From: Ligustrum vulgare
Lineage: Eukaryota > Streptophyta > Magnoliopsida > Lamiales > Oleaceae
Assembly (NCBI GenBank): GCA_963555705.1
Contig: OY743190.1
Span: 18,173,491 to 18,237,490, forward strand
Length of the DNA stretch: 64,000 bases
Direction: 5' to 3'
Shown one piece after another: positions 2,689 through 63,430 of the stretch (within the stretch, counting starts at the first letter, position 1; each line of letters starts with the position of its first letter). The position numbers were made by a program, and so were the translations under genes. Under the pieces are notes generated by a model. It had not been told where the DNA came from and made no database searches. It worked only from the letters and a program-made list of their open reading frames with translations.

Positions 2689-3484
2689 TGACACGATTCA
2701 AGATGCGCTGAATTAAACGCCGGAAAGTTCCGAACCCAGCCTGTGGATGGACGGTGGAATCTTGACCCAATATTCACGATGCGAAGATCGATGATGGGGA
2801 ATAAAGAACCAAGACTTTCGAAATGCCACAACGATCTGTCCAACGTCCTTGATAAGTTTTTGATTTGAACGCCACAAATACTCTCATGAATATTTGATAA
2901 GTTCGGGATGAACGCAACAAGAAATAATTCTTGGCCAAGTTCGAAGAAAATATAGGAATCCACCTATATATTTTATTGAATTCTTAATAAACTGTTAAAT
3001 AAAATCCAAAAATGTTTTACAATGAATGGAAATAACATATAAATAATGAAAACAACATAACAACTAGGGTAATCGCTAATGGGCTTAAAATAGAGTTCTA
3101 ATTAAACTAAAATAATTAAAATTGAAAAATGAAATAAAATTCTCGCAAAATCTTATCCCGCTGAGCAGTTACGGCCGTGAAGAGACACGACTGTAAGTGT
3201 ATTCCTGTTTGAAGGTTACGACCGTGACCTGAGACTTACGTCCGTAATTGTGAAAATCTTGGAATCCTGTGTTTTGGCCCGAGAGTGGATTACGACCATA
3301 ACATATGGCCCTTACGGCCGTAAATATGCTTCTAATCCTGAAAATTTGATCTTTCGACTCGGCTTGATCCCTTCGTCTTCTAGGCTCGACTCCAACATGA
3401 AACTTGTTCATTTTCCTATGTAGAATGTTGTTGCATTTCCCGTGTATTGATTTCTCCTTTAAACTCCTATCTCAGATCACATCA
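2689..3484 (-). mobile_element. 3' LTR of N1
   Basis: The minus-strand LTR starts TGATGTGATC at 3,484 and ends at 2,689 (TGACACG on the + strand). It aligns over its length with 21,534-22,202 and with 62,623-63,430. A TATA-like TATTTATAT lies on the minus strand at 3,045-3,037, about 130 bp downstream of the palindrome array. The purine tract at 3,485-3,500 precedes it, which marks it as the 3' LTR. Confidence 0.75.
3168..3323. repeat. TTACGGCCGTAA array in the N1 3' LTR
   Basis: Five or six copies or one- to two-base variants of the palindrome have centres near 3,174, 3,190 (poor), 3,221, 3,241, 3,295 and 3,317. The clear pairs are 20 and 22 bp apart. Most variants are C-to-T or G-to-A changes. 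The array lies about 160-315 bp from the U3 start of the LTR. Confidence 0.75.
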
Positions 3485-3500
3485 TCCTCCCTCTCTTGAT
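3485..3500 (-). other. Polypurine tract of N1
   Basis: The minus strand reads ATCAAGAGAGGGAGGA directly before the LTR start TGATGTG, the expected place for plus-strand priming. The second N copy has an equivalent tract at 63,431-63,445. Confidence 0.7.
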
Positions 3501-3536
3501 AAGGACTCGACCTTGAATCAATTTCTGACTTGCTCT

Positions 3537-4596
3537 TCAAACAGTTCCCGCTCTTGGGTTGATGTAAAAATACTCCACCTGGATCGAATAGAAAATTACT
3601 GCTTCCATGCCAGATGAATGACCAATAGTATTCCGTAACTTGGGTGGCATGGATGATCTAATCATAAGCTTCTTTAGCCATATGTGGTGTGGCTCAAACT
3701 CCCAAGCGTAACCAACCTGCAAAAGAGATTTAAATAAAATAGGGAGGGGAATGTTAGTTTCATGAGGTACATGGTATGAATCCTTGTATACGTGATGAAG
3801 CATCACTAACTCCTCTTTTTGAACCAGAGAATCTTCTCTTCGCCTCTTTCCTCCCTTGCAACTTCTTGTTCAATTTTTACTTTCAAACCCAACCACATCT
3901 TCTATCTCTACATTTTTATCACCATGTTCATGTACTACCTCATCACTGCCCAAATGTGGATCTTCAACTTCGAAGTTCAAAATTTACACTTCTACCCCCA
4001 ACCTCCAATTCATGCTTCTCATCAACAATATTAGTGTCAATCACTTCAACCTCACTATTATTTTTCTCCTCATGCCCCTTGTCAACAATTATATCTTTTT
4101 GTTCACCCATCTCTTCATTACCAAATTTTTCATCTTCCACCTCAAAATTTGGAGTTTCTTCGACCACTTCTAACCTCAATTCTAACTCACCCTCCTCCTC
4201 CACATCAACATCCTTAACCTAAGGCTCTACTATAATATATTTTTCACTCTCTTTCAACCATTTAACCATAACCTCTATTTTCTCCTCCTCCTTTTGCAAC
4301 CTAGCCAACCTTTTCCTTTCTACCTCTCGTTCACACCTCATTCTTTCCTCATAGATTTCTTTCTGAATATTCAAAATCACCTTCGGATCAATCTCTGCTC
4401 CCCTCTTAACACCAATTTCATCCATAGGTTTATGATCACGCCTATAATTCCTTTCATCACTTAGTTTGTTTGAGATCGCTCATTTTTCAATTTGGCCATG
4501 TTTTCATCTAGTTTATCCAACTTCATCCAAAAACCTCCACACACAATCTGTATCATTAACCCTCCTAGATGAAGATTTTTCTTTGGATTCAAACAT
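3537..4596 (-). pseudogene. Single ORF of family N: coiled-coil and acidic protein, decayed
   Basis: Translation starts at ATG 4,596-4,594, about 395 nt after the primer site once the solo LTR is removed. The N-terminus begins MFESKEKSSSRRVN. A charged helical segment rich in E, K and R follows (4,425-4,219), then a very acidic stretch (4,203-3,964), then a C-terminal part with LPILFKSLLQV (about 3,735-3,705). There is a short compensated frameshift near 4,520-4,460, one in-frame stop near 4,220 and a frameshift before 3,806. The second N copy shares the motifs ETPNF and LPILFKS. No zinc knuckle, protease or polymerase is visible. The protein could be a gag-like packaging partner or a captured gene; I do not recognise the family. 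Confidence 0.55.
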
Positions 4597-9998: not shown

Positions 9999-10640
9999 TA
10001 TAGCGATCGAGAAATTTTCAAACTTAAAAGACTTGTTTTACCAAACTTGTCGCTACGACTCTCCAACCTTAACGATTATTATTCAAAACCAGCACTCTCG
10101 TCTAGTCATATTAATTATTTTAAGGTTTTAAAAAAAGAAATTTAAATTCTTTTAAATCTTTAACTCCAGATTTCAACTTTTAATAGATTATCCAAATTAT
10201 TTGATTTTATGTCCAAATCCATTATTTATTTTAAAATTCAATTTTCAAGTTATGGGATTCAAATTTATTTTTAAGTCTAAAATGCTTTAAATCCCCAATT
10301 CATGTTCCAAAGTTCCTCCCCAATTTCCATTTGCATATACAACACATTTATTTCCTATGATCACCCTCAATCCCCTTACATATGCACACAATTCTGGCCT
10401 ACACCAAAACCAGTCATAACTTACCAAAAAAAAATTGAGCCAATTACCAGCCAAGAATCCTCCCATTTTCACACTTTGTCTTCATCATCATCACTCCACG
10501 ATTTCTTCTTATCATTCACAGCCAAAAAATTCATTCAAATGTTCATTTCCTCTAACTAGTCAGCATCTCTAATCACTCTACAATTCCATAATTCTTTCCC
10601 CACTTTCCTCAAATTTTCCCTCACTCTAGCCTACCATTTC
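9999..10640 (+). mobile_element. Tekay-like LTR T3, left part
   Basis: The start TATAGCGATCGAG matches the family start TGTAGCGACCGAG with G-to-A and C-to-T changes, and similarity to the minus strand of 30,576-30,200 continues for several hundred bases. It sits six bases inside the end of the N1 5' LTR. It breaks off at 10,640, where the element at 10,641 is inserted, and resumes at 19,675. Confidence 0.7.
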
Positions 10641-13380
10641 GAGGAGCGCGGGAACGTCACTTTTCTAAATTCTTGAATAAACTTTGTTGCGAAAAATGAC
10701 TAAATATTAAATATCGCATTTATTAAATAAAAGTTTAACGATAATTTAATTGGAATAAGTAATTTCGTACAAATTTATAAAAATGAAATTTCTTGATAAA
10801 ATGAAATAATTATTTCAAAGTTCACGACTTAAAAAAAAATATCAAATTGCAATTTGCCGTCATTGCCCATCACTCGCCACCATTTCTGCAAAATTTTTAA
10901 AACAACGGGTTGAGCATTTCAAAATGAAATACTCAGTAGACTCATCGCCAATAATTAATCTACAAGATAATTGGACAAATAATTATCCAAATAATATAGT
11001 GACATTCTTTTCTTATTCATAGGCATCATATAGTGAACGCAAATGAACACTTTCTTTTCTTTTCTTGGCTAGCAGATAAGTTAGGCCCAGCATAACATAA
11101 TTCTTTATCTCAAAAGAGATATTCTTTTCTCATGCAATTAAGCATAAAATCACACAAATCCACATAACACATGCAATTATAATATAAATCAATTAGTGGG
11201 GGCGAGTCTACCTTAAACTTGATGAGTGTGGTTGAGCGGGAAACGACTTCAATTCTTTAATTCTCCGTACGCTTCGTCTAGCCCATATGTTAAATTTGTC
11301 TTTAGAAATTTATAGTTTATTACAATTTGAGGACTGAAATTGATGATTTGAAAGTTGAGGGACTAAAATGAATATTTTTTATAAAGTTGAGTCAAAGCTC
11401 AAAATGAATATTAAATTGTGGGGCTTGTAATAAGTGATTTTAAAAATAAAGGGCTTATTAAAATCATTTAGAACTTAAGGGGGACTGAAATAATAGGTTT
11501 TAAAACTATAGGGTCTGAATTAAACGGTTCATAAATCTTGTGACTAAAATAATAACTTTTGAAACTTAAAGTAAGATTTAAAATATTTAAACTGTAGGGA
11601 CTGAAATGAATAACTTTAAAAGTTTGGGACTAAAGTGTAATTTCTGAAAATTAAAGTATTAAAATCAAAATTTAATCTCTCTTTCACGCATTCGACTGAA
11701 GCAGAGGAGAGTAGGAGAGAGAGCTGCGGCGCGGCGAAATATGGAGGAAAAATCTCCAGCCGGCGGTTCGCCGGTGCAACGCATGTGTAAGGTGTGGCGA
11801 GCGGTGGGGCGTTGTAGACTAGGTTTTTTTGTGCGGTTTAGGTGCGAGAAATGGGTGCGAAATAGAAGTGAAATCGAGGCTTGGAGCTGCGATTTTCCGG
11901 CGGTGGTTGAGGTAAGTACCGGGCTTCGATTCTTCTCAGTTTTTGGGTTTTAATTTGGGTTTTGATTTTGGTTGATTTATGGGGATTTGGTGTTGTGCAC
12001 TAGGCCGGTTCATGTGGTGGTTGGTTCGGCCGGTGGTAGTTGTTGTGTGGATGTTGACTGCTGGTTTGGTGGATTGATGATGATGATGGTTATGCTGGAA
12101 GGTAGTGGTGATGGTGGCTGCTTGATTCAGTGAAGGTATTGAACGACTGCGGTGGTGTCAATGCGACGGTGATGATGGATGGTGGAGCTCTGCAGGTTTT
12201 GGGTTTGGTTTTGAGATAGTGAAGACAGTAATTGGTTGTGTAAAGGTTGCAGGCTATGGTGAATGGAGGTTGCTATGGTGGTAGGGAGATGACAATGGTT
12301 GTAGGTCTGGATGATTTGAAATTTGAGTTTTTTTGGTTGTCGTTGATGGATGTACGTGGTGGTTAGTGATGGAGCAGTGTTGGTGGTTGCGTGAGATGGT
12401 TTTGTGAAAATTGATTCTTGTATTGATTAGTGGATTGGCAGTGATGGTTGGTGATTATGATGAGGTTGATGAAGGGGTCGGTGATGAGGTTGGTGATGAA
12501 TGGAGGTTGAATGTGGTTGGATGATGAAAGTGGAGGTGGGAGGAAGATTACTTATATTGAAGAAGTGATGGGAAAAGGAAAAAATTGATCAATGGAAAAC
12601 ATCATGATTTGGGGGAAATCATTGAGTGGAATAATTGAGTGGATGAGAATGATGATGGAATTGGTGTAAAGATTAGTTGAAGATGCTTTGTGATTGGATA
12701 ATGAAGTGGAGAGAAGAAGAAAGAATGAGCAAATGTGGGAGAAAATTTGGTTTTGTGAACGTGAATTGTTATGAGGGAGAAGAGGAGTATATGTATTGAT
12801 TAGAAATTATAGGAGAGAATAGTGGGGAAATAGGTTGGAAATGAAGTGGAAAGTTAGGTAAAAGAAATGGAACATGGATATATCATCATTATGTTTTTGA
12901 GACATAATGATGGTTGAATTGTTAGAAAAGAAAAGAAAGAATGAGCAAAAACGTGGGAGGAAAAATTTTAGGTAGAATTAATTTAGGATAATTAACTAAA
13001 AATTTGACTAACTTCGATTTGGAAATGTATTTAAACTGATATATTTTGGACTGAAAATAAATTTGAGAATAAATAAACTTTGAGAAAAAAAATGATTTCC
13101 GTATATGGACTTAAAATATTTTAATAAGGAAAAATTTAGATATTTTTAATAAATTTGGAATTAAAAAATGATTTTGAAAATAATACTTTGAATAAATAAT
13201 TAAAATAATATAATTTTAGAAATTCGGAATTTAATCAAAATCGAATGAACTCGATATTTCTTGACTTGGCTAGACGTATACGTCGCGGCGTTAACTTAAA
13301 AATATGGGTGAAATAGCAGCGACATGATTTTCTAAATTTTAAAATAATTATTAAATGCGTAAAAATTCTTGGTTGCTACA
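10641..13380 (-). mobile_element. 3' LTR (left) of the LARD-type element
   Basis: It aligns along its length with 16,928-19,674. The terminal 18 bases of the other LTR (16,910-16,927, TGTAACGCC and on) are absent: the ATTTC duplication joins directly to GAGGAGCG. It contains the antisense promoter-like block (about 11,690-11,911), the minisatellite (11,330-11,660) and a G/T-rich, C-poor tract (11,940-12,560). It ends GGTTGCTACA. Confidence 0.85.
11690..11953 (+). promoter_or_regulatory. Antisense exon-like block in the left LTR
   Basis: A GC-rich island in AT-rich DNA holds a GAGAGA leader, an ATG at 11,741 and a frame running to GTTGAG followed by donor GTAAGT (GT at 11,912). The frame stays open to 11,953 past the donor. 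The LTR copy at 18,035-18,247 preserves the frame with very few changes. It is antisense to the element. It may be a spliced antisense leader; a functional protein is unlikely. Confidence 0.4.
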
Positions 13381-13399
13381 ACCTTACCTCCTTAAAATA
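13381..13399 (-). other. Polypurine tract of the LARD-type element
   Basis: The minus strand reads TTTTAAGGAGGTAAGGT next to the LTR start TGTAGCAACC. Just upstream is TTCGAGGACGGAA, the form of pol 3' end usual in Del/Tekay chromoviruses. Confidence 0.7.
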
Positions 13400-21533: not shown

Positions 21534-22202
21534 ATAAGTTTCCAACATCCTTACTAAGGTTTCCAACATCCTTAATAAGTTTCTGATTTGAACGCCACAA
21601 ATACTCTCGCGAATATTTGATAAGTTCTGGATGAACGACACAAGAAATAATTCTTGACAAGTTCGAAGAAAATATAGGAATCCACCTATATATTTTATCG
21701 AATTCTCAATAATCTATTTAATCAAATCCAAAACTGTTTTAAAATGAATGTAAATAACATATAACTAATGAAAATGACCTAACAACTAGGGTAGCCGCTA
21801 ATGAGTTCAAAATAGAGTTCTAATTAAACTAAAATAACTAAAATTGAAAAGGAAATAAAATTCTCACAAAATCTTATCACGCTGAGCAGTTACGCCTGTG
21901 AAGAGATACTTAAGTGTATTCCTGTTTAAATGTTACGGCCGTGACCTAAGACTTACGGCCGTAATTGTGAAAATTTTGGAATCCTGCGTTTTGGCCTGAG
22001 AGTGGATTACGACCGTGACATATGACCCTTACGGCCATAAATATGCTTATGATCCTGAAACTTTGATCTTTTGGACTCGGCTTGATCCGTTCGTCTTCTC
22101 GACTCGACTCCAACATGAAACTTGTTCATTTTCCTATGTAGAATGTTGTTGCATCGCCCGTGTCTTGATTTATCCTTTGAGCTCCTATCCCGAATCACAT
22201 CA
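21534..22202 (-). mobile_element. 5' LTR remnant of N1
   Basis: It aligns with 2,860-3,484 of the 3' LTR and with 62,790-63,430. It ends on the right at CACATCA (22,202), the common LTR border. Its left 170 bp or so are missing, and a short segment TCCAACATCCTTA is duplicated at the break. Its last six bases lie at 9,993-9,998. Confidence 0.7.
21889..22040. repeat. TTACGGCCGTAA array in the N1 5' LTR
   Basis: Five copies or near copies occur at about 21,890, 21,935, 21,955, 22,007 and 22,028, again with 20-22 bp between the members of each pair. Compared with the 3' LTR the individual motifs have different substitutions, as expected from independent decay after insertion. Confidence 0.7.
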
Positions 22203-23586: not shown

Positions 23587-23602
23587 AATCCCCCCACACT
23601 TG
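23587..23602 (-). other. Polypurine tract of the Athila element
   Basis: The minus strand reads CAAGTGTGGGGGGATT immediately before the LTR start TGATAAGTG, a typical Athila arrangement. Confidence 0.85.
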
Positions 23603-40196: not shown

Positions 40197-40198
40197 TT

Positions 40199-45207: not shown

Positions 45208-45743
45208 CTATCACTTTCACGGTCATAATTGAGTTGTGTAATTTTATTCAGTAGGTGACTTACGGCCGTAAGAACACATGTCACAGCCGTAAGAGTTAAA
45301 ACAGTTTTTGGACCCGAGGGTCAATTACGGCCGTAAGAACGATAGTTACGGCCGTAAAAAGGCGCCGAGTTTTATTTTAAGAATTTTGCGGCTAGGGTTA
45401 TTTTGGACGCGTTTTTGCACTATATTAAGTTTTCTTTGTCATTGTAAAAACACAACTTTTATGATTAATAAGATTGCTTGAATTAGGTGAGTTTATCCCT
45501 ATTCTTCTTCGTTCTTGATTGAACCCCTTGAACTTATCAAAGGATTTGACAACTTTTGTGGCGTTCACCCCTTTATGGTTCTTCATTCCGCATCTTAACG
45601 GGTCTTGGATTTGATACATCCTTGGTTCTTGAGTCGCGAGCGTCAGGTCATATTGTTATCGTCAATTAGTCTGGATTTGGAACTTTCCAAGCATTTACAT
45701 AATTTTCGCGAGATCCCGTGATTCCCCAACAAGAATCACATCA
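44910..45743 (+). mobile_element. 3' LTR of the CRM-like element
   Basis: Pairs with 39,362-40,196. The last 298 bp of the pol frame lie inside it, to 45,207. TATA-like TATATTA at 45,421-45,427. Confidence 0.9.
45154..45358. repeat. TTACGGCCGTAA array in the CRM-like 3' LTR
   Basis: The same eight positions as the 5' LTR array. Some motifs that are imperfect in one LTR are perfect in the other (ACGGCCGTAAC here against ACGGACGTAAC in the 5' LTR). The first two encode part of the pol tail as YGR. Confidence 0.85.
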
Positions 45744-48359: not shown

Positions 48360-50097
48360 TATTTCCGACGAAATAGGAAAAATAAAAGTTAGAAAAGGTA
48401 AGAAGCCAACTTCAAAGTATTGGGATCACTTTAAATTAGTCACAACGGGAAAAAAATTGAAGGAGAAGATGAATTCAAAGTTGTGTGCAAATATTGTACA
48501 CAACAATTGGCATGGGCGAAGGAGATTGGTACTACACACCTCAACCGTCACTATATCGCAAGTGTCAACCCAAGCATGGGTTCGTTGAACCAAATCAAAG
48601 TCAACTACAATTTGGTTCATCGACCGCTAGTGGTTCTGGAGCGAGATCTACAACACTTTCAAATTTGATGTATTTCGAAGCAGAGAATCGAACTAGGATG
48701 GTTCAATTTGTTGCGGGGACGGAGTTGGCACTAAGCAAAGTGGACAACGAACACTTTGTTACATACATCAAGCGTTATCTTCAACCCAGGTACGTCGGTA
48801 TTACTTAAAGCACTCTACATTCTGATACAATACAATATTATCTTAAAACTAAGAAACAATTAATAGTCGATTCAAATAACTATGGTGGTGTTATTTCTTT
48901 TATTTCTGATCTTTGGGAAGGTATTAACAAAAAAAAGTTATATTGCTCCAACTGTACACTACATCGATCCACTTTGGGTTATGCATAAAAAAATTATTGC
49001 TTTTAAAATTCTAGAATTTCCTCATAATGCAATCAACATATTTAATGCTATACTTCATATTATTAGAGAATATGGGTTCGAAAGTAAAATTCGATCATTT
49101 ACTTTCGATAATTCTAGTGTAAATAAGCCTGTAGAAGATAAATTATGTAGAATTCTTAATCCGAATTTTGGTGATTTCTTATTCCATGTTAGATGTGTAT
49201 GTCATATTTTAAATTTAATTGTTCAAGACGGCTTGAAACATATTAAAGATGAAATTGATAAAATTAGAGATGTTATAGTGTACATAACCATATCACCGTG
49301 TAGAAAACAATTTTTTGAAAATATGTGTTTAGAATACAATTTAGATTCTAAGAAATTTATCACCGACGTAGGTCATAGATCGAACTCTATATACTTGTTA
49401 CTTAAATCATGCGAAGGTTATGAACACATAATAATGAAATATTATAATAGTAGGACACTTAAGAAAGACGATGATCCTCTATTAATAAAATCGGATTGGA
49501 AAACTACTTTTAAAGTGAAAAAAAATTTGACAAGTTTTTATGATTCAACCAATATATTATCTGGAGTATATTACCCAACTAGTTCAGGAGTTCTTGAACG
49601 TCTTTATATTATTGCAAGAACTTTTTATAGATATAGATATGACTCATTTTTTACTAAAATGATAATTGCTATAGAAATGAAATTTAGAAATGAGTCAAGC
49701 ACAAAGAACTTCTTCTTACAGTATGTCTTCTAGTACCAACGAATCAGGTTCACTTCAAATACCTGAAGAATTAAAAATTTATTTTGGACAAGATCTACTT
49801 AGAAATGTGGAGTCTACTAATTCTTTAGAATTTGATTTACTTCATTATTGGCGAATAAACGAACGAAAATATCCGATTGTTTCCGCCATAGAAAAAGATC
49901 TACTAATACCTCCGGTTAGCACGGTAGTTTCAAAGTCTGCTTTTAGTGCAGGTAAAAGGGTTTTATCAGAAGTCAGGAGCCGACTCAAAGAAGATATTTT
50001 GGAAGCGTTGATTGGTATTAAAGATTGGCAAGACGGTGATTTACGCATACAACATAAGTATGCCGAAATTACTTGTAGTCAGGTAAATGATATTTAA
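48360..50097 (+). pseudogene. hAT transposase relic (BED finger, RNase H-like core, dimerisation domain)
   Basis: A BED-type finger is split by a frameshift near 48,475: SKYWDHFKLV upstream, then VCKYCTQQLAWAKEIGTTHL and NRH. The core (48,882-49,690) has YIAPTVHYIDPLWVMHKKI, FTFDNSSVN and HVRCVCHILNLIVQDGLKHI. The hAT C-terminal dimerisation domain (49,750-50,060) reads EFDLLHYWRINERKYPIVSA and STVVSKSAFSAGKRVLSE. There are breaks at about 48,475, between 48,808 and 48,882, and at 49,690-49,733. Order and motifs fit plant RICESLEEPER-like transposases. Confidence 0.85.
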
Positions 50098-50624
50098 CTT
50101 TAAATTTTTAATTTCTTTATATATATAAAATAAAATATAATTTTGATTTCAAAACAAAAAATTGTACATGTAACAAATTGTTCGTGTACAATTTTAACTC
50201 CGCCTACTAGTACTAGAATATTAAATTATTCAATTAAGACTATTTAGTAGCCGGTCCCAAGCCCGAAAAAGGAGGAGGGTTTTATTTTATTTTTAAACTT
50301 TTAAATTTTAATTTATTTACTTAATTTTAGTTTTTGTTTTTTCAAATTATAATTGGATATTTCATTATTTTAACAAGTTTTTATTTGCATTATAAACTTA
50401 TAAATTATAATTAATCATTTCGACTTTCAATTTAATTCACTAATAACTAACAAACATTATTTTTTTACTTATTAAGTTATTAATAATTTATTTAATACAT
50501 AACTTATAACTAATTACAAATTTATATGATTATATCAATAATATTAATATTCAAGGCTTCAAGTATTTTATTTAACTATCGATTGTCGACTAAATCAACA
50601 TAAGAGGGGATTTTTAAAAAAAAA

Positions 50625-50770
50625 ATTCGAGCTGGACGAGCCGAGCTTGGCTCGTGGGCCAAGCCGAGCCTAAGCTCGGCTCGTTTGACACGAGCTCGTG
50701 GCTCGGCTCCTCCATTTGACGAGCCGAGCACACCGAGCCACGAGCCAAGCCGGATCGGCTCGGCCCACAG
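50625..50770. repeat. Right subterminal GGCTCG/CGAGCC cluster of the hAT element
   Basis: Words such as GAGCCGAGC, GGCTCGT and GCTCGG are packed into about 145 bp next to the right terminal repeat, mirroring the left end. Confidence 0.75.
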
Positions 50771-50787
50771 CCACCTCTATTCATGTG

Positions 50788-51050
50788 TATTCAGACACAT
50801 ATTTTAAAATTCTTTCATTTCAAATAATGGTTACAAAACAGAGACGATCATCTAACAACTCATTCTCGTTTATTTTTCCCCACTATTATATACTTCAACT
50901 TTCTACGTTGTATGGTCAAAACACAGGCACAGAACAAAAATATTTTTTTGCAAATACATACACACAATTCTTCATTTTTTTCAACCGCATTCAAACGCTA
51001 TCCTGACTTACAATTACTCCTCATTCGTGCAACGCACGTTCAAGACCTAG
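50788..51050 (+). mobile_element. Helitron-type 3' end
   Basis: The segment ends GTGCAACGCAC (short hairpin stem GTGC/GCAC), then about 9 nt, then CTAG at 51,047-51,050 followed by T. This is the canonical Helitron 3' terminus. The 5' end is not located and may lie left of the hAT insertion. Confidence 0.5.
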
Positions 51051-51356
51051 TATACCTAAAAAATTCTTGTAGTATAATTACTAATTATTAGTTAAATAAT
51101 TACAATTAAGAAGACGATTGTTGACATATTATTGAAATTTAAAACTAAATTGGAACTCAACGATCCAATTTGAATAATAATAATGAACAAGTTGATACAT
51201 TAAATTTCACTCAAAGTTGAGTGAAATTTAGCTTTGAGCTAAGATTGAATTGAAGTGTAAAAAAGTGGGGCTATTTCATTGATCACTTCTTTTTTCTTTG
51301 TGAATTATATCTATTAATATTGATGCAGTCTAATTGGCGCACTTTCATAATCTTAA
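51051..51356. other. AT-rich spacer
   Basis: No frame or repeat border recognised. A short inverted repeat around TTTCACTCAAAGTTGAGTGAAA (each arm about 9 bp) lies near 51,210-51,232. Confidence 0.4.
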
Positions 51357-53270
51357 TCTTTTATATATATATATAAAGTCTTTGTAAAAAATAACACACA
51401 CACACTTTCCCGTCAAAATTTACTTGCTAAATTTGGAAATGTTTTGCCCAAAAAACAAGAATTAAAAAATATAAATAAAAAATGATTGTATTTTGAAAAG
51501 TGTAATAATTGCAAATTTGAATTACACTTTTGAACACTACATGCATTTGTTCCCTAATAAATAAATAAAAAACATTTTGAGCACTGTTAAATTATATAAA
51601 AAAATAACGGTAGTTAAAATTTTTTGTTTAAAAGCAAATAATGTGATGTTTTTAAGGTAAAAATTAGTGATTGAAAGGTGGAGAGAAAAAATATGTGTGA
51701 TTAAAAAGTAGTTTAAAAAGTTAATTGTTTAAAAATATTTTATCAAACAGAGATGCCTCGTTCCAATTTCAAAAAATGGCAATTTAAAATTGTCTATAAT
51801 CTTATTATGAATCTTAACTTCAATTTTTTTTTTTTTGTGAAAAATGTGAAAAAAATTACATCAAAAGCATCATAAGTCTAATTTAAAAAATAAATAGGTA
51901 ATTCTCTATTGTTATAAAAAAGTATTCAAGATCCGTAATTTGGAAATTTTGTCAAATTAATTAAAAAAAATTATTCAAAAATATTTTGCTTAATTATAGT
52001 GTAACTAATTTGGTAAAGTAACATTAAATTATTTCTAAAGATATAAAATTATATTATTAAATGTATTGAAAAATACTTAAATAACCCGAAAATATTTTAC
52101 TTTAAAGAACGAAAAATGTTTTAGTTTAAAGAACTTAAGAACATTTCTTATATTGTGTATTTTTTTTATAAGTTTTCCAATTAGATTATATAAAAAAATA
52201 AAAAAATTAAATGACTAATCCAAAAATTTCTTTCAAATCGAATAATTTCATACTTGATTGTATATAATTTTCCGTCATATGTAATGACAATTAACAAGAG
52301 TTAGAAGTAATCACTCTCATATGTTGGAATGTATTTGAAAAATCCTATGAGTAACTATCAGTATTAAAATTATGTTTAAGCATGTGTTCGATAAACTTGT
52401 AAAAATGATTTATAAACCATTTTATAAATCACGTTTTTAATCATACACATTATTGTATTATTTTGAAGTCAAAAAATATATAATATAGACATCAAATCTA
52501 AGATGTCAACAAGAAGTTTAATACAATATAACAAGTGAGAGCAAACTGTAAAAATATTTTCTGTAAAATCGTTCAAAAGATCAAATGTCAAAGTTTTATT
52601 TTATATTTTTAACTTCATTTTAAATTATATCATTTAAGTTATATAATACTCCTTATTCAAAATATCTGAAATGGTTCAACTTGAAAGAGGCAACAGATCA
52701 AGGGTCAGAAGATTGAATCGGGTTGAACCGGGGTCGAATCGATTTTAATTAACAAATAAATAATTATTTCAAAGATCAGAAAAATTTCTAAAAAAAATTA
52801 TTTTAGAAATAAAACAACATTTACTCATTTGGAGTTAAATTAAATAAAAAAAAATATAACAACAGTATTCTTTACCAATTTAAAGCAAATATAGATTTAT
52901 GGTTGTAAATAATTTAATATATAACAAAAAGAGAGATAAAAATAACTTATTTTAAAAAAAGAAAGTTTAACAAACAATTAAATAGTAAATAAAACTATTT
53001 TTTTTTGAAGAGACAAACAATTTTAAAAAGAAAAGAAAAGAAAATCTTATAATGAACATAATTTCTTATTTTTTATTAGTTTTGTAAATGTTGCATTTCC
53101 TATTTTGATTATTTTTTTTTAAGTTTTGAATTTGATAATATTTTATATTAAAATGTTATTGTACTATTTTTTTATTTGATATGATTGTATAAATAATATA
53201 TTTTCATAATTTTGATTGAAATCACTATCAAAACTATATTCACGTGCATCGCACGGGTGAAAAATACTAG
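51357..53270 (+). mobile_element. Candidate non-autonomous Helitron of 1.9 kb
   Basis: The candidate 5' end TCTTTTATATATATATATAA at 51,357 follows an A. The 3' end has the hairpin CGTGCATCGCACG (53,243-53,255), then about 11 nt, then CTAG at 53,267-53,270 followed by T. Joining the flanks across it gives a sequence resembling the copy that starts near 53,720. The interior is AT-rich without coding potential. Confidence 0.5.
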
Positions 53271-53958
53271 TTATATATAAAAGTAGAATAGCCGTCACCA
53301 AAATACACGCATAGTTTCCCGCAAAAAAACTTTCTAAATTTAGAAATTTTTTGCTAAAAAGTGGTATATTAAAATTTGAGCAATTATTATTTTAAACGTG
53401 TCATTAATTGCATTGGCATCCGTACTATGCTGTTAATAACATCAAAATGTTATTTTTCTATTTTATTATTATTCTTTTAATAATTATTATATTGTTTTGA
53501 AATCGAAAAATATGTAATATGTGTGTCAAATTAAAGAGCATGGTGAGAAGTTTAATACAAGCTAACAAGTGAGCAAATTGTAAATATATTGTCCGTAAAA
53601 TCATATCAAAATTAAAAGTAAAGTTTTATTTTTTATTTTATATTTTTCCTCAATATCTAATTCATTTTAAATTTTATCATTTAAGTCCTATAATCTTATC
53701 TTATCTTAATCTTAATATATCTTATATAAAAGTAGAATAGCCGTCAGCAAAATATACACATAGTTTCTTGCCAAAAAAAAAAAATTCTAAATTTTGAAAT
53801 TTTTTGCTAAAAAATAGTATACTAAATGTTTTAGCAATTATTATTTTACATGTGTCATTGATTGCATTGACATCCGTATTATGCTATTAATAACATCAAA
53901 ATATTTTTTTTTTCTATTTTATTATCATTCTTTTAATAATTATTGTATTATTTCGAAA
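53271..53958 (+). repeat. Tandem copies of an AT-rich repeat starting AAAAGTAGAATAGCCGTC
   Basis: A first copy starts near 53,271 and a second at 53,720 (TCTTATATAAAAGTAG, itself a Helitron-like 5' end after A). A third, partial copy occurs at about 52,440-52,650 (shared AGTTTAATACAA and CAAGTGAGAGCAAA). The second copy is interrupted at 53,958 by the next element. Confidence 0.6.
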
Positions 53959-54784
53959 TCTATTACATATAAAAAAATAGAAATGAGGAGAGAGAAGCAT
54001 TTAATGTTATTTTCCCTCCAAAATACACTTACAATTTTTGAAAAAAAAAACTAAAATAAAATAAAAATTCGTGTATATAATATTTATTATCCTTTAAATA
54101 ATAAATAATATTTTCTAAAATATATATTATATATATTATTATCAACTATTTAATAAATTAAAACTTTCGTTCAAAGGCTTTGTTTTTTGTTTATGGATAT
54201 GAATGTCAATATTTTTAATCGTTCTTAATTTTAATAATTGGGTAAAAATTATATGGAATAAAGCTTTCGATATAATTTATTGATCTCTCATGTTATCCGA
54301 TTGTTATATAATGATAATAATTGAAGATTTTCATAATTATTATTTTAATTTCTTGATTTTGAAAATAAAAGTATAATTTTATTGATTAAATATTTACAAA
54401 TATTTACTTGGTTGAGAATAAACATACATTTATAATTATTTTGATAATTTTTTTTTTTTTAATGAAAGTTGAAAAAAATTGTTAAATACAAGAGGCAAAT
54501 GCAGAAATAATGTAAATTTGCATTTTCAATGAAGTAAATAATAACTCATAAAAATTATTGAAACCTACGATTGTTTATTATTTAAATATATAAATTGACA
54601 TTTTATTATTCCCTACCAAATAGGCATTGTTTTTTAAATTTTAATAATTATTGTAATAGAATAATATTATTTTATGCATTTTATATTTGTTTTGATTATG
54701 TAAAAGTAATAACATTTTATGAATACTTATCGAAATAGATATTATGGAAAACAATTTTTGTGCATCGCACTGGGTCAATACTAG
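53959..54784 (+). mobile_element. Non-autonomous Helitron of 826 bp, insertion proved by empty site
   Basis: It begins TCTATTACATAT and ends with hairpin GTGCATCGCAC (54,760-54,770), TGGGTCAATA and CTAG (54,781-54,784). It sits exactly between A and T with no target duplication. The flanks joined read CGAAA + TTGAAAAATATG; the sister copy near 53,503-53,516 reads CGAAATCGAAAAATATG without interruption. All features match non-autonomous plant Helitrons. No ORF. Confidence 0.85.
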
Positions 54785-55334
54785 TTGAAAAATATGTAAT
54801 ATGTGTGTCAAATTAAAGATCACAGTGAAAAATTTAATGCAAGCTAACAAGTGAGAGCAAATTTAAATAAATAATAACTATGCGAATTTTTAAGTCAAAT
54901 TCAATTAAGTTGGGTTAATTTTACAAACTTAAGATTTCTTCAATTCATTCATCATTTTCACATTATTTTTATTTATTTACTGATTCATGTTCATTTTTCT
55001 ATTTTTCATTATAAATTGAAATAAAAAACTATGCAAAAATATATTACAGATTTTAATAATTAGTTCACATAATTCCTATTAAACAATTGATAGTTAGTAA
55101 TTTTTATTAAAATAATAATGTAACAATATGAATAAAGAAATTGTCAGTATGAAGGAAGAAGATTCAATTAATGTAACAATATTTATTAAAATTAATGATT
55201 ATATTTTTGAAAAACACTTGAAATTAATTATTAATGTTTAAAATATCAAATTATACCAAAAAAGTCTATCATATACCTCTTTTTGGGAACAATATGCTGA
55301 AGAATAATATATGAAAAGTCTATCAGTATATTTT
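54785..55334. other. AT-rich DNA with the remainder of the interrupted repeat
   Basis: The first 90 bp complete the repeat copy split by the Helitron (AATATGTAATATGTGTGTCA and on). The rest is AT-rich without recognisable structure up to the LINE. Confidence 0.5.
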
Positions 55335-58300
55335 AGACTGACCATCTTAGTTTTGCTCGATCTAATCTGTTCATAACAACTTTTGGAGGTGAATTGGCCA
55401 GTAGGATTGAGCTTCCATACGATGATATCTTCAGATTTGTCAATAGGAATGCTTTCAATATTATTTACAATATACTGAGGGAGAAGCTGTCTAAGTTTTT
55501 CCAAATCCCATTCACTATCCACCATACAATCAGCAACTTTGATATTTTGGGAGGCATTTTGCGAGAATTCTTTAAGGTGTAGATTAGGAAGCCAATGATC
55601 AAGAAATAGATTGCATTCCCCTTTTCCAATGATCCATTGGATATGTTGATCTATAGAGTCTCTGATATGACAGAGTCTTTTCCAGATGGATGAAGCCGAC
55701 GTTTTCAAAGGAGAAATGTTAGGATGATATCTATCACAGTACTTAGCTTTAAGAACCTGACTCCAAAAGGATTTCTGCTCACGAAATGTCCACCACATCT
55801 TGAATGCAAAACATTTAGATATATCATATATCTTTCTGCAATTGATGCCTTCTTCCACATACGACAGGCATAAATTCTCCCAAGCACACCAATGAATAGT
55901 TTTATGTTGATCAGAATCTCCCCAAAAAAGCTGTTAAAATTTTTTGAAATGGTGTTCAAAATGGCTTTAGGAGGAAGTAAAGCTTGAAGCAGTTGCATGG
56001 GGATAGAGCTTAAAACATGTTTGATCAAGGTAAGTCTACCACCTGAAGATAAAAGCTTATTTTCCCAGCCAAAAACCCTCTTTCTAAGTTTCTGAATCAA
56101 CTCAACAGAGAGAAAGATGTTCTTCCTTCCTTTATGTAGTGGGACACCCAAGTATTGCATTGGCAGATGAACAAACGAAAATCCTGTGATATTCTAAATA
56201 ACTTGCTGATGATGGAGTTTAGGTGTATAAAAATTGCTCTTAGAGATGTTGATTTTTTGTCCAGAATTTTTGACATACAAATTCAAAAAGAGCATTATTT
56301 TTCTAATGTTGATCACCTGGCCATTAATAAAGATCATAACATCATCTGCAAACGCAAGATAAGTAACAGCTTAGGTCCGCCATAAACATAATACATAGCT
56401 GGATTTTGCTAGAATAGTTTATTTATGCCACGCGAAAGAGCTTCAGCCATTATGATGAAGAACGATGGAGAGATAGGATCCCCTTGTCTTAGTCCCCCTC
56501 TAGATTTGAAGTATCCCTTTAGTTCACCATTAATGAGGACTGAGAACCCTATAGAATTAATACATCTATGAATTTTGTTGACCCATGCTTCATTAAATCC
56601 AAATCTCCCGAGCACTTGCAATAAGAATCTCCAATTAGTTCTGTCATAGGCCTTTTGCATGTCCAATTTCGAAATAACATTTCCCCCTCTTATCTTCCTA
56701 TCCACTTGCTCTATAAGTTCCTGTGCTAGCAATATGTTATCAATGATATCCCTTCCCGGAGTAAATCCACTTTGGTTGTTTGAAATGATGTTAGGCAGTA
56801 AAAGATTTAATCTGCTACTCAAAATTTTGGTGATGATTTTGTTGCTGAAGTTACATAGACTTATAGGCCTTTAATCCTTCCACTGATCAGCATTGTCTTT
56901 CTTAGGAATGAGAACAATAGTGGTAGTTGAAATACCATTTGGAATGTCTCTTCCCTGAAAGAAATCAACAACAACATTCAACAAATCATCTTTGATTATA
57001 TCCCAACAGGCTTGATAAAAGGAGCCCCCAAATCCATCTGGTCCAGCCGCACTATTTTTATCCATGGAGAATACAACGTTTTTTTAGTTCAAGTAAAGTA
57101 GGAGTAGCATTGTGTTTGATGTTTTCCTCATCAGATATAAGTTGAGGGATGCAGTCAAGGAATTCTGTGGAAGGATCAGTTTCTTCATTGGCCAGTAGTT
57201 GCTGGAAGAGCTCAATGGCAAAAGCCTGAATCTCTTGCATATCTTCAAGAACCATTCCATGTTTAGTTTTTATATATTTGATGCTATTGGACCTCCTTTT
57301 ATTATTGACCATAGCATGAATGTATTTAGTGTTTTTATCCCCCTCAGCTAACTACTTAACACCTGCTTTTTGTTTCCAAAATATCTCCTCCCTCTTGTAG
57401 AGTAAATTTGAATGAGCATATGCCTTGTGTAACTCACTTCTGTTTTGGGGGCTTTGGTTGTCATCATAAATTTTTTCCAGCCTATAAGCTTTATTTTCAA
57501 CCTCCTTGATGGTAACAAATATTTTTCCAAAGCAGACTTTATTCCATTCCTTAAGTCTGGTTTTTAATCTCTTGAGTTTGAAGAAAAAACCAAACATCCC
57601 TTTAGAGTAAGGAATCAGAGGAGCCACCCAGGATTGTTTAACACAAGCATGAAAATCTTCATGAGAACACCACAATTCTTGAAATCTAAATGATGAGGCA
57701 GCTTTGAAAGACTTTGGTGAGATGCATTGCAGTAAGATGGGGTTATGATCCGAAGTGTCTCGATTGAGGAGTTGTGGTTTGAAGTCAGCAAAAGTAGAAC
57801 TCCAATGAACATTGATTAAGATTCTATCAAGCTTCTCCCATATTTTCCCATTAGTCCTAGTATATTGACCTCCATCAATGCAATATTCATTTACGCCACA
57901 TTTCAGTAACATATCACCAAACTCAGTCGTTGTATGAAGATTAGGGGGGTTACCACCTTTCTTTTTCTTAGGCCTAAGTATAGTGTTAAAATCTCCACCA
58001 ATCAACCAAGGACCATTAATGTAAGAAGAAAATTCTATCAAATCTCTCCATAAATTTCTTCTATCTATAATAGAACATTTAGCATATACCCATGTTATAT
58101 GGATACTCTGGTTATACCAGGATGTTTGAATAGTCAAATGCTGCTCTTTATCCTCAACAATGTTACAACTGAAAGAATCATCCGAAAAACACTATAATTT
58201 TCTAGAAGAATTAGAATAATGGTATCTGAGACCCAATTTGAGACCAAAATCTGAAATCTGTATGTAATTGACAATGGGTTCTGAAAGTAAAAGAAGCCCA

Positions 58301-58383: not shown

Positions 58384-59243
58384 CAAGATTAGAAATATTT
58401 ACCTCCCTTGGGTCTCCATCCTCTTTTCTTCCTAACTGCCTTGGGTTCTTCATATGTATTTATATATTCTATCTCCTCATCCTGTGTGTTTTTATGGACA
58501 AAGCTTTCAATTAACTGAGGGGAGGTTGCACTTCTTTCAATAGGCACGTGATCAACTTCCTTAAGTGTGTCTTTATCTGAAATTTGTTGCAATTCCAGCA
58601 GTATTAATTCCATTGGGACATCCTGATTAACTCCTTGTTGCTCATTCACATTCAACTCATCATTGGCTTCCTTTAGGTCACTTTCAATCTCTTGAACTTC
58701 ATTAGCAGTAGCATCATTTGAAATATTATTTTCAACATATATCTCAGACACCTTAGGACCCATGTTCCCCTGTTGATCTTTTAGATTATCTTCTTCTCCC
58801 AATACTTCAAAAGAATTACGTATGTCAATTCTTTTAGCAGGAGACATAGATATAGTTGGATCTTCTCTGATATCAAGATTATTCAGTAATGCAGGTGGAT
58901 TGTATATTCTTTTCCCTTTGTTTTGAATCTGCTTTTCAGTCCAAATACCATCCTCTTTGTCAGTTTTGACTGGATTTTCCGATACCTTCTTAGCTGGTAA
59001 AGACTTCGACAATTTCACAGGGAGGTTATTTTCTTTCTTCCAATAACATTCCTTCTCTAAATGTAGCGTACCCGGTCCTCAAGGGATGCTGGCCGTCTAC
59101 TCATGATCTTTCCACTCCCCCCTTGGTCGTCCTGGTCCTCCAGGGCTGCCAGCCTCGTTTCTAAGAAGTGGATTTTTGCCTTCCGCAGGGATCGAACCTT
59201 GTACCTAGGGGTTTAGTACAATGATTCTTAGAATCCTGCTACA

Positions 59244-59308
59244 TGGTCTAATGGTAGCAGGATTCTAAGAATCATTGTACTAAACCCCTAGGTACAAGGT
59301 TCGATCCC
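59244..59308 (+). promoter_or_regulatory. tRNA-like pol III boxes, unit 1
   Basis: Box A-like at 59,244-59,257 and box B at 59,298-59,308. In this unit the tRNA-like block also occurs inverted on the left (box B complement GGGATCGAACC near 59,190), so the core itself is palindromic. It does not fold as a full cloverleaf, so I do not call a tRNA gene. Confidence 0.5.
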
Positions 59309-59563
59309 TGCGGAAGGCAAAAAATCTACTTCTTGGAAACGAGGCTGGCAGCCCTTGAGGACCAGGACGACCAAGGGGGGAGTGGAAAGACCATGAGTAG
59401 ACAGCCGGCAGCCCTTGAGGACCGGGTACGCTACAAAAAAAAAGGCGCCTTTTATTTTGTAGCGTACCCGGTCCTCAAGGGCTGCCGGCCGTCTATTCAT
59501 GGTCTTTCCACTCCCCCTTGGTCGTCCTGGTCCTCAAGGGCTTCCAGCCTCGTTTCCAAGAAG

Positions 59564-59628
59564 TGGTCTAATGGTAGCAGGGATTTAAGAATCTTTGTAC
59601 TTAACCCCTAGGTACAAGGTTCGATCCC
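59564..59628 (+). promoter_or_regulatory. tRNA-like pol III boxes, unit 2
   Basis: Box A-like at 59,564-59,577 and box B at 59,618-59,628. Here GCAGGGAT next to box A pairs perfectly with ATCCCTGC overlapping box B, giving one long hairpin in place of separate arms. Confidence 0.5.
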
Positions 59629-60505
59629 TGCGGAAGGCAAAAATCCACTTCTTGGAAACGAGGCTGGAAGCCCTTGAGGACCAGGACGACCAAGGGGGAG
59701 TGGAAAGACCATGAGTAGACGGCCGGCAGCCCTTGAGGACCGGGTACGCTACACTAAATGTCTCACATGATTACAGAATCTGCAATAAGAGAAGTTTGAT
59801 AATTTTGACTCATCTTCATACACAACTTTCTGCCATATACTAAATTCATCATGCCCAATCTTAATTCGATCAACTCTGTCCCTTGTAAGATCCACTTCCA
59901 CACATATTCTAGGAAGATATAGCCTGGACTTGGATGTTGTTGGCTCATCTACTTTTAGAGGTCTTCCAATAACTGAAGCAATTGAATACAATATGGCTTT
60001 ATAGTAATAGATCAGGGGCAGTTTTGGGAGAGATAACCACATTGGAACAATTGGGGATTCCTTACTGGATTCAAAATTGACTGTATATTTCATGATTCTC
60101 ATAGGATATCCTTTGATGTACCAAATAGGCTTAAGGAACAATCTCATATAGTCTTCTTCAAGCTGAAAATTAATGAGAACATGCTTTGGATCCAGTGATC
60201 CAATGGAAAATTCCCCTCAAAAACCAGAACTTATCAAGGATTGTTTGATTTCAACATTAGCTGGTTTCATATGTGATAATTTTTCCAATGAGAGCAAATG
60301 ATAATCAGTTGGATAATTTTGTTACTTCTTCTTTGGACACCAGAATAAAAGGTTCATTACACACAATTTCAAAACCTCGAACTGGAAAAATTTCAGAATT
60401 ACCTTCATAGGCAACTTGTTCGAAGGATTTCGCTTTAGCAGAGGCTGGGGGCTTCTTCACTTCAAGAATTTCAGCAAAAGTTCGCCCCAAAGGGGGTTGA
60501 TCCAT

Positions 60506-61661
60506 TTAGTCGACCTTCAATTTTGCCCTATGATATATAGAAAACACCAAGGATGATGGGGGTGGGGGTCACGCGCCACCACTCAGCACAGTTTCCAAAT
60601 TGGATTGGCGTAACAAACTTAACCGGAAAGGGCAACGACCTATTCAGGAAAGAACTTCCACCGCCTCTATTTTGGGAAACAACGGCTTTTTTAGCTGAAA
60701 TATTGAGATAATTTTGAGAATTATTGTAGTTAGTCTGCATTAAAACTATGAAGATAATGAAATAAATTTGAGGTTTTTAAGTTAGCGGTGCACTAGGTTA
60801 TTGAACTGATTTACCTTCAAGGCTAAGTAGATTATTGAAATAAATTTGGGAATTTACTATTAATATTTGACTGTTGAGAAAATTTGGAGTCGTTGATTAC
60901 TTGCAATAGAATACAAAAATAACATTTGCAACATTCACAATAGATTCATCCCCGTAGACAGTATAGTATTTGGCACTATGTTTCAATTTTCATTCCTCGG
61001 AATCCTATATTTTATGGTTCTCTTATCCAAAGTTTATATATCTACTAGTGAAAAGTCGTACTCCATACGAGAAATGTGTAGATGTTGTATTACTTAGCAT
61101 CATTGAATTAACGGAATCCTAATATAATCATATTATGTTTTTTCTATAAAGAATTATTAGCTGAAGAGACACAGTAAATCATAGAAGGCTATATAGTATC
61201 ATATAACAATTAATTAAGAATACATAAAATTTACAATTTTGGGAAGGGCCATGGAACTGTGCAACGCATTCGAACCTGGTGGTATGGAAAAACTGTTTGG
61301 GATATTATTTCCAAGCAATTCTGATACCACGTATCCAAAACTAGCTTGAACAGTATTAGGAAAGCTATTCGGGGACAGCAAGTACAATAACATTCCTATA
61401 TAATCGAGAAATAATAAATTCAGAAAGGTTCGCAATGATCAGACATCAATAATGTGATGCAAATTGTAGTAAATAAACAAGTGAAAAGAATGTATAAGGG
61501 GAAACAAACGAAATGCACTAACATGATGTAAATTATAGTAAACAATGACATACGAACGAATTAGCTTTAAACTTAATTAATACAGATAACAACCTATCTA
61601 CCATTAATTGGAGGTCTTTCACAATTTTTTTTATAAGCCAATTTTTTGCTAGCAAATTTGT
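60506..61661. other. LINE 5' region and unassigned DNA
   Basis: 60,506-60,740 is the probable LINE leader (a small minus-strand frame with GGGSSFLNRSLPFPVKF). From 60,741 the DNA is AT-rich. A minus-strand frame at 61,435-61,214 includes FGYVVSELLGNNIPNSFSI and looks compositionally coding, but I cannot assign it and see no splice context. Confidence 0.4.
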
Positions 61662-62622
61662 TGAGTGCATTTTACATGCATATTTCATATATTTTTAGTA
61701 ATACTTTTTGAGTAATTTGGACAAATACCTACTTAATTTTACATATTTTGTGGTTAAATAGGTCTAACAATCAACTTCATGGTGAAAGCACAAGAAAGAA
61801 GCTAAATGGATAAATACTTGAAGAAATTGAGGAGAAAAGAGTCAAATCCATCATAGATTCAAAGTTTGGGGATCAAATTGTCATTTTCAAAAAGTTGTGG
61901 ATCGCATGTGCAATTGATCGAAGGACTAAATTGCAAGTTTCCAAAGTTGACGGACTCAAATGCACTTTTGAAAGGGCTCAACTGAAAGAAATCAGAAACT
62001 TTGGGGACCAAGTTGATCTACACTGAAAGTTGGAGGACCCAATTGTTAATAATCAAATGACGAAGCTGCCAGGTCAACCAAGTGATCGTGTGGTTAATCA
62101 CAGGTCGCGTCCGCGAATCAAGACTAAAATCCAAGCCGAGAGTTTTCAAAGTCAACCACACGATCGCGTTGGGCCGACCCGGTGCGACCCGGTTCGGCCC
62201 AAAAGCTGTTATACGCGGATCTACGCGATTTTGGATGTATTTTTGAGATATTTTGGGTATTTTTGAATCACTTTTTCCCTCCTTTTGAAGCAAGAAACCC
62301 TAGCTCTCTTTCTCTCTTTGATTTTTCTTGCTTTTGTCTTGTAAGTTTCTCTTGCAATTATTAAGAAATTGTTGTGTATTCTAGATCAATACAATATTTG
62401 CTCTAGGTTCTTGTTTAGGATAGAGATATACCTAAAACCCTAGATGACCCATTGAGCTATTTTCACAAAGGTTTAATCGACATAGAGATATAGTAGGTTA
62501 ATGCCACTAATTAGGGTTGATTTCACTCGAGAGAGGTAATTGGCTAAGCTTGGAAAATCGGGTCTAACATGATTAATGAATTGCATTTCTATTTGCTTGT
62601 GATAATTCAATTAGGTAATTGA
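61662..62622 (+). mobile_element. LTR-like fragment, interrupted by N2
   Basis: It begins TGAGTGCATTTTACATGC and holds a GC-rich segment (62,090-62,230), a TATA-poor promoter region, AAACCCTAGC plus a CT-rich leader near 62,285-62,320, and then DNA typical of plant Ty3 LTR U5 (TTCACTCGAGAGAGG near 62,522). It is cut at 62,622 by the family-N LTR. The other end is not in the window. Confidence 0.4.
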
Positions 62623-63430
62623 TGAGATTCGAAGCGCGGAAGAAACGCCGGAAAGTTCCGAACCCAGGTTGTGGTCGGACGGATGAATCATGTCCCGATA
62701 TTCACGACGCGATGGCTTGACGATGCGGAATAAAGAACCACGACTTTCGAAACACCACAAGGATTTGCCCAATCTCCTTGATAAGTCTCTGATTTGAACG
62801 CCACAAATATTCTCGCGAATATTTGATAAATTCGGGATGAACGCCACAAGATAATCAATCTTGATAAGTTTGAGTTTGTAATGTGAATCCACACATTAAA
62901 CAATTGAAAAACATTCAATCTCTGTTTTATTTAATCATCAAAGTCTTTTTTACAATGAATGGAAAAAGCGTTTAAATAAGCACAAATAAAACCCTAGTCG
63001 CTAATCTACTCAAAATAGAATTCTAACTAACCTAAAATAGCTAAAAACTGATAAGGAAATAAAATATTTCGAAATCTTTAAACTCCACAGCGGCGCACGT
63101 CCAGAAGCAGTCTTACGGCCGTGAGTATCTTCATTTACGGCCGTAAATTGTGTAATTGAAATATGTTACGGCCGTGAATATTTTCGTTACGGCCGTAAGT
63201 CCCTTTTATCCGGTTTATGAAATATACAGAGAGCAGGTTACGGCCGTGAGCTTCAAAGTTACGGCCGTGACCAATTCCATCCATGGCCGTGATTTAATTT
63301 TTGGTTCTTTTCGATACGGTTTGATCTTCAAAGCTCGTCGAACCTGCTGAATTCTTGTTTTGGGTTGAATATTTAAATTTTCCCGTCAAGCCTGCTATGA
63401 CTCCTATTGTCGAGGGTCGGGATCACATCA
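62623..63430 (-). mobile_element. 3' LTR of a second family-N element (N2)
   Basis: An 808-bp LTR from TGATGTGATCCCG at 63,430 to 62,623. TATA-like TATTTAAA at 62,978-62,971 on the minus strand. It is followed on the right by a purine tract (AAAGAAGGAGGGTA on the minus strand, 63,444-63,431), which shows that it is the 3' LTR. Left flank ATTGA; the right end of the element is outside. Confidence 0.75.
63112..63292. repeat. TTACGGCCGTAA array in the N2 LTR
   Basis: Seven motifs have centres near 63,118, 63,140, 63,171, 63,192, 63,243, 63,264 and 63,286. Spacings are 22, 31, 21, 51, 21 and 22 bp. Several end GTGA instead of GTAA. The array lies 140-320 bp from the U3 start. Confidence 0.9.

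Follow-up and report, generated by a model that had tools for sequence, protein, structure and literature searches.

Arrays of one directional box in neighbouring retroelements of Ligustrum vulgare

Retroelements and box arrays of the window

The stretch considered here is a window of 64,000 nucleotides (nt) of Ligustrum vulgare, to which all counts and alignments below refer. Self-comparison and domain searches identify it as plant DNA made up mostly of nested retroelements. Arrays of one short box are hosted by an Athila-type Ty3/gypsy element, by a chromovirus of CRM group A type (CRM-like element) and by a family of pieces bearing long terminal repeats (LTRs), termed family N (Table 1). 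In the Athila-type element, which includes pieces repeated elsewhere within the window, Pfam recognizes gag, protease, reverse transcriptase (RT), RNaseH and integrase domains. A sequence resembling a primer-binding site (PBS), TGGCGCCGTTGCCGGGGA, starts about 6 bases past its 5' LTR, compared with 5 bp beyond the LTR in Diaspora/Calypso; we take it to be complementary to tRNA-Asp, a feature of the Athila lineage. The name Athila is putative and is based on PBS position and domain order rather than on a tree; none of the 120 protein matches listed for this element bears a lineage name. In both this element and the CRM-like one integrase follows RT and RNaseH, which is the Ty3/gypsy order. The CRM-like element has a PBS of tRNA-Met type, TGGTATCAGAGC, which presumably fits tRNA-Met. 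Its LTR begins with TGATG (TGATGAG) and finishes with CATCA (CACATCA), and the open reading frame (ORF) containing the integrase end (44692-45207) extends into the 3' LTR, which starts at 44910. A frame running into the 3' LTR, LTR ends of the form TGATG...T/CATCA and a tRNA-Met PBS have been described for the CRM clade and its group A (Neumann et al. 2011, PMC3059260), and the element matches group A in its LTR ends, PBS type and reading frame. Pfam gave no chromodomain match in this element. Among the matches listed, the best organism-named relatives of the pol proteins come from Fagus for the CRM-like element and from Malus and Pyrus for the Athila-type element. Family N consists of three LTR-bearing pieces on the minus strand and its lineage is proposed from the likeness of the LTRs; N2 is 89% identical to N1 over 647 bp, and the downstream part of N3 is 75% identical to N1 over 471 bp. 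LTR identities of 96-98% suggest young insertions.

Table 1. Elements, box arrays and predicted promoter features of the window
Feature	Coordinates	Strand	Remarks
Athila-type Ty3/gypsy element	22228-38562	-	LTRs 98.3% identical; GGTAT (5 bases) flanks both sides
CRM-like chromovirus	39362-45743	+	LTRs 39362-40196 and 44910-45743, 96.4% identical
Array N1	3169-3323	-	5 boxes, family-N LTR; strand from reverse-complement R/U5 alignment to the CRM-like LTR
Array N2	21890-22040	-	5 boxes (one with 3 mismatches), second family-N copy
Array N3	63113-63270	-	6 boxes
Athila 5' LTR array	38225-38373	-	5 boxes
Athila 3' LTR array	23249-23397	-	5 boxes
Athila interior array	31310-31539	-	8 boxes; located after pol and ahead of a further ORF; in part a tandem repeat of 65 bp
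CRM-like 5' LTR array	39606-39810	+	8 boxes
CRM-like 3' LTR array	45153-45357	+	8 boxes
TATA-like TATATT	39874-39879	+	63 bp downstream of the CRM-like 5' LTR array; predicted from sequence
TATA-like TATAAA	38134-38139	-	85 bp downstream of the Athila 5' LTR array; predicted from sequence
TATA-like TATTTAA	62972-62978	-	134 bp downstream of the N3 array; predicted from sequence
TATA-like ATTTAAA	31287-31293	-	16 bp downstream of the Athila interior array; predicted from sequence
Putative leader of internal transcript	31127-31287	-	161 nt; stretch picked by eye
Post-pol ORF	25546-26403	-	PF20167 domain of Pfam (putative plant transposon protein); might be encoded by the internal transcript

With up to two mismatches allowed, TTACGGCCGTAA has 47 matches, against a mean of 1.18 and a maximum of 5 in 100 dinucleotide-preserving shuffles, and exact ACGGCCGT occurs 32 times against 0.10 expected from shuffles; these figures rule out a chance origin of the boxes. 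All 47 matches fall within eight arrays lying between 3169 and 63270. At three mismatches, a count that covers the arrays, these contain 50 copies, which bears out the initial annotation of about 50 copies of a palindrome in eight arrays. One extra three-mismatch copy is located in the Athila LTR, outside its array.

Spacing of the boxes

The spacing of the boxes was analysed in 27 adjacent gaps from the N1, N3, Athila 3' LTR, Athila interior and CRM-like 3' LTR arrays, a set that omits N2 and the second LTR array of each pair. Gaps of 20-22 bp account for 16 of the 27, when 2.5 were expected and 8 was the largest number in 2000 random placements. Among the 11 longer gaps, seven measure 43-47 bp, a number reached in 0 of 20,000 random draws, and three of these seven belong to one tandem array. 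The distances given in the initial annotation are correct, namely 21, 22, 21, 43, 21, 44 and 21 in the CRM-like LTR, 21, 46, 21, 44, 20, 45 and 21 in the Athila interior, and pairs of 20-22 in family N. At a score of 40, Tandem Repeats Finder detects a 65-bp unit in the Athila interior array and a two-copy stretch of 22 bp in each Athila LTR, and no repeats in the CRM-like or N arrays. Simple tandem duplication is rejected as a full explanation.

Boxes 9 nt apart could pair as a 12-bp stem, which raises the idea that paired boxes act as RNA hairpins in the transcript. However, the 25 adjacent pairs of the eight arrays (duplicated LTRs included) show 41 deviating stem positions, with 1 compensated and 9 G-U, and a hairpin function is scarcely credible.

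Orientation of the boxes

Read along transcription, the box takes the form T[T/C]ACGGCCGTAA[C/G], with a CGGCCG core in which positions 6 and 8 are invariant (32/32 copies). It had been presented as a palindrome, a symmetry that its use does not respect: 10 of 32 copies have C at position 2 and none has G at the mirror position 11 (p = 0.002 by copies, five arrays). When all eight arrays are counted the figures are 17/50 and 0/50, and the variant with C at position 2 is present in seven of the eight arrays, being absent from the Athila interior array. Likewise, position 7 is altered in 6/32 copies (C in 26/32) and its mirror, position 6, in 0/32 (p = 0.03), and a C or G stands just after the box in 25/32 cases versus 14/32 just before it (p = 0.01). 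Since the elements occupy both strands, the orientation of the box tracks transcription and not the strand of the window.

VANDAL elements are DNA transposons. In Arabidopsis, they also carry dense, same-orientation short motifs in noncoding parts, which evolved partly through tandem repeats, and they differ from the present case in the motifs and in having a binding protein encoded by the element itself (PMC5735166). It could be envisaged that the binder of the boxes is an anti-silencing protein encoded by a transposon, by analogy with VANC and the VANDAL motif arrays; the density and common orientation of the repeated motifs in noncoding regions would fit, and VANC6 acts also on a motif-bearing element unrelated to VANDAL (PMC5735166). 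On the other hand, VANC motifs differ from the box, two lineages would need the protein of one element, and a scan of 19 ORFs, out of 24 with 150 amino acids or more, gave no suggestive Pfam match, a weak test. Such a binder is thus very unlikely.

Promoter context and a putative internal transcript

TATA-like strings are predicted downstream of the CRM-like 5' LTR, Athila 5' LTR, N3 and Athila interior arrays (Table 1), and the TATTTAA stretch of N3 resembles by eye the CRM-like core promoter. The heptamer TAGGGTT, which we take to be telobox-like, occurs shortly before the TATA-like box at 39846-39852 in the CRM-like LTR and at 62990-62996 in the N3 LTR. In the Athila interior, the 161-nt stretch that follows the array contains no ATG, when 3.1 are expected (about 9% of stretches of equal length have none). 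It is 72% pyrimidine (99.5th percentile), and its last bases, AAG, adjoin GTATGT, which may be a splice donor. The interior array, the ATTTAAA string and this stretch look like a promoter, a leader and a splice donor for the post-pol ORF, a resemblance drawn from sequence features. The ORF matches PF20167 and has no protein relatives at E <= 0.001. A gag-like reading-frame fragment recognized by eye at 26363-26657 in the Athila post-pol region suggests a further nested insert.

The observed/expected CpG ratio is 1.29-2.30 in the arrays and 0.72-1.39 elsewhere, with an array GC content of 0.35-0.47 (seven of the eight arrays, N2 omitted). This CpG richness would suit boxes that serve not as activators but as operators or targets of host silencing, whether by a repressor, by methylation or by small RNAs directed at palindromes. 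Nevertheless, elements are expected to lose silencing sites and not to multiply them, and the boxes occupy the position of an activator with a common orientation, so that silencing appears a distinctly unlikely function.

Kinship of the elements and of their arrays

The carriers of the arrays had initially been regarded as three unrelated families. Downstream of the arrays, in R/U5, the CRM-like LTR can be aligned to N1 (z = 6.7) and to N3 (z = 15.0), where z scores derive from 200 shuffles each and none of the 200 scored as high in either case. Therefore, the CRM-like element and family N are related in this region and the carriers probably represent two lineages, not three. N1 and N3 align with each other downstream of the arrays at z = 112. 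By blastn, the likeness of CRM-like and N sequences in R/U5 is reduced to a 19-bp match (E = 0.006 and 0.07), and the downstream part of the Athila LTR reaches z <= 3.0 against the other families (N3, 2/200). Upstream of the arrays, the CRM-like and Athila LTRs align at z = 5.5 (0/200) over sequence that is purine-rich by eye and perhaps of low complexity; N1 versus N3 and N1 versus Athila each give z = 2.6 (4/200).

Inside the arrays, local alignment with the boxes masked was significant in none of the nine pairs tested (10 possible), N1-N3 included, and masked blastn gave no Athila-CRM match at E <= 0.1. The spacers of N1 and N3 score 14 versus a null of 15.5, yet the boxes are kept in both. 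Masked blastn did return an A/T-rich 45-bp match of the Athila interior with N2 (E = 7e-5) and with N1 (0.003). Spacers were also compared in register in 20 tests (10 array pairs in two orientations, 400 shuffles, floor p = 0.0025). Three tests reached the floor, corresponding to Athila interior versus CRM-like in the same orientation and to Athila LTR versus CRM-like and Athila interior versus N1 in the opposite orientation; for Athila interior versus N3, p = 0.0125. The Athila interior versus CRM-like match covers two adjacent spacers and in the same register scores 33 versus 6.2 ± 3.9, a value found in 0 of 5000 base shuffles. Harsher nulls give p = 0.001 (dinucleotide shuffles) and p = 0.0003 (T-matched real sequence), that is, about 0.007-0.02 once corrected for 20 tests. 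The masked-array local alignment disagrees with the in-register test, 17 of 200 shuffles scoring as high for this pair. As the alignment extends over two spacers, the arrays are likely to owe something to shared descent or to exchange, and part of the array may have moved between the Athila and CRM-like lineages. The earlier statement that the sequence between boxes does not align between families is consequently valid for most spacers and gives way in 3 of the 20 in-register tests, chiefly in Athila interior versus CRM-like.

Common descent or exchange could by itself account for the arrays if one ancestral array had spread, through tandem duplications as well as recombination or template switching between elements, the boxes looking conserved since the arrays are young. 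The R/U5 shared by CRM-like and N, the 65-bp tandem repeat of the Athila interior array, the three in-register tests at the floor and the LTR identities that suggest young insertions speak in its favour. Against it stand the masked alignments and the masked blastn between Athila and CRM described above, and common descent alone leaves unexplained that the N1 and N3 arrays are alike only in their boxes. Overall we regard this explanation as unlikely, albeit with an appreciable chance of being right.

Change since insertion

The CpGs of the boxes had been thought to be retained through maintenance, an argument that finds no support in the LTR pairs. Between the two CRM-like LTRs the boxes differ at 8/96 positions versus 21/738 elsewhere (p = 0.013), the differences affecting 3/33 CpG positions in boxes versus 7/51 elsewhere and 5/63 non-CpG positions in boxes versus 14/687 elsewhere. 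The corresponding values are 2/72 (including one match outside the array) versus 20/1288 for the Athila LTR pair (p = 0.33), whose boxes are thus not less changed, and 7/60 versus 56/580 for N1 and N2. The occurrence of perfect boxes can be attributed to the apparent youth of the insertions. Selection, if any, would have acted in the transposing lineage, before insertion, because N1 and N3 keep their boxes amid array sequence that cannot be aligned.

Interpretation

Taking these observations together, it is probable, though by no means secure, that the arrays serve two Ty3/gypsy lineages as upstream activating sites for a single plant factor or factor family. The basis for this proposal is the number of copies, their spacing, position and common orientation, the divergence of the spacers and the spacer match across lineages; protein binding, activation, the internal transcript and selection are what we infer from them. 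An upstream activator is favoured because position, density, 21-bp pairs and common orientation fit it, and the presence of the same box in neighbouring distinct retroelements, upstream of predicted promoters, suggests a common control protein. According to this model, one plant DNA-binding factor or factor family would recognize the directional box, and the separation of box pairs by 21 bp, two helical turns, would let adjacent bound proteins cooperate. The bound arrays would then boost transcription by RNA polymerase II from the downstream TATA box, and the second array of the Athila-type element would drive an internal promoter for the post-pol ORF. The same box would be used by the Athila lineage and by the CRM-like/N chromoviruses, at least one stretch of array having been copied between them and the remainder having been kept by selection on transposing lineages while U3 diverged. 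A factor of the LOB-domain class was weighed as a candidate binder, for which a literature search gave no support, CGGCCG being absent from the papers listed.

Several observations weigh against an activating role. Helical phasing of the longer gaps (11 in number) lacks statistical significance (p = 0.17); of the strong phasing initially claimed, the spacing of 20-22 bp is what is borne out. The TATA-like strings of N1 (positions 168, 199 and 215 past the array) and N2 (positions 198 and 214) lie at least 167 bp away and were not accepted. The agreement in orientation is not significant when counted by lineage or family, the cases being too few, and change after insertion has not spared the boxes relative to other sequence. 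Finally, about 5 kb that include repeated pieces separate the interior array from the PF20167 ORF further downstream, so that the link of this ORF to an internal promoter is weak. A shared binding site, as put forward in the initial annotation, remains the best reading even though four of the arguments offered for it fail or weaken, and it is strengthened by the promoter-proximal position and the common orientation of the boxes. If the activator model is true, a single host factor is required by separate retroelement lineages of the plant. Identifying this factor would reveal what activates Athila-type elements and CRM-type elements, the latter known for centromeres, and the way in which the post-pol gene is expressed would become directly testable.

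Other features of the window

A pair of direct repeats of 2.75 kb (10637-13381 and 16924-19675, 97.8% identical) contains no boxes at up to two mismatches. Pieces related to or shared with these repeats are found at 1609-2408, 20644-21534 and 28155-29022, the last one within the Athila-type element. Direct and inverted repeats (86-96% identical) cluster at 59062-59753, where the stretch 59062-59435 is self-complementary. Positions 50001-56000 are AT-rich, with 21-27% GC per 2 kb versus 35% in the window. The window has no Rfam match at gathering scores.

Comparison with known systems

Among the papers listed by literature searches whose coverage misses the majority of subscription journals, none was seen to report such boxes in Ty3/gypsy elements. 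Judged by title, ACGGCCGTAA led to no retroelement paper and ACGGCCGT combined with retrotransposon and LTR led only to the context of probes for fluorescence in situ hybridization. CGG-CCG palindromes in the retrotransposon literature were found only in PMC2829016. Among the 120 protein matches listed for the CRM-like pol, none carries the translated box YGR in its tail, one YGR lying outside the tail at residue 181. Viral contigs yielded no confirmed DNA relatives in two protein-guided scans and no matches to the paired-box pattern, and the sole match of a genome-contig scan was a Spirochaetales metagenome bin. There, an array of ACGGCCGT (L001:2058-2230; eight by eye, one of them a variant) lies upstream of an ORF that by eye resembles the methyltransferase subunit of a type I restriction-modification system; it is probably an unrelated bacterial operator array.

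Two further systems offer partial parallels. The LTRs of Del (Tekay), which are Ty3/gypsy chromoviruses, likewise have a CpG-rich variable block in their 5' part, with the CpG island missing in eudicot groups and the string "palindrom" absent from the text (PMC4029996). In the plant element Grande, according to the title of a reference in PMC11963269, an accessory gene of the 3' internal region is transcribed from its own promoter.

The closest likeness is to the repeated motif (RM) boxes of Sireviruses, palindromes described in 13 of these elements, 12 of them with a CGG-CCG core, at 8-32 copies per element (Bousios et al. 2010, PMC2829016). Within the LTR they occupy the upper half, a short distance ahead of the TATA box, with an extra cluster before ENV in ENV-bearing elements; they are CpG-rich, forming a CpG island, have divergent flanks, and no single factor was identified for them in that report (PMC2829016). 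The core is also present here, as CGGCCG without intervening bases, and so is the LTR cluster before a TATA-like box (63 bp in CRM-like, 85 bp in Athila and 134 bp in N3; not accepted in N1/N2). The counterpart of the cluster before ENV would be the eight boxes between pol and the PF20167 ORF, for which no relatives appeared at E <= 0.001, and that of the CpG island the array CpG ratios of 1.29-2.30, but at a GC content of 0.35-0.47 (seven arrays). In PMC2829016, RM boxes are termed Sirevirus specific, as the other Ty1/copia elements in the comparison lack them, and TTACGGCCGTAA is not among the 13 consensus boxes listed. The layout is known from Ty1/copia Sireviruses, and its carriers here are Ty3/gypsy (Athila-type and CRM-like), outside the taxonomic limit set for it. 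If the activator model is true, a layout reported as Sirevirus specific extends to Ty3/gypsy, including boxes before a post-pol gene. More tentatively, and against the odds as we see them, both superfamilies of plant LTR retrotransposons might share a code of CGG-CCG arrays, one host factor family, genomic and internal promoters and modules exchangeable between Athila and CRM, of which the directional 12-mer would be a local dialect. The present case further differs from the Sireviruses in that a single box, moreover a directional one, is common to two lineages of the same genome.

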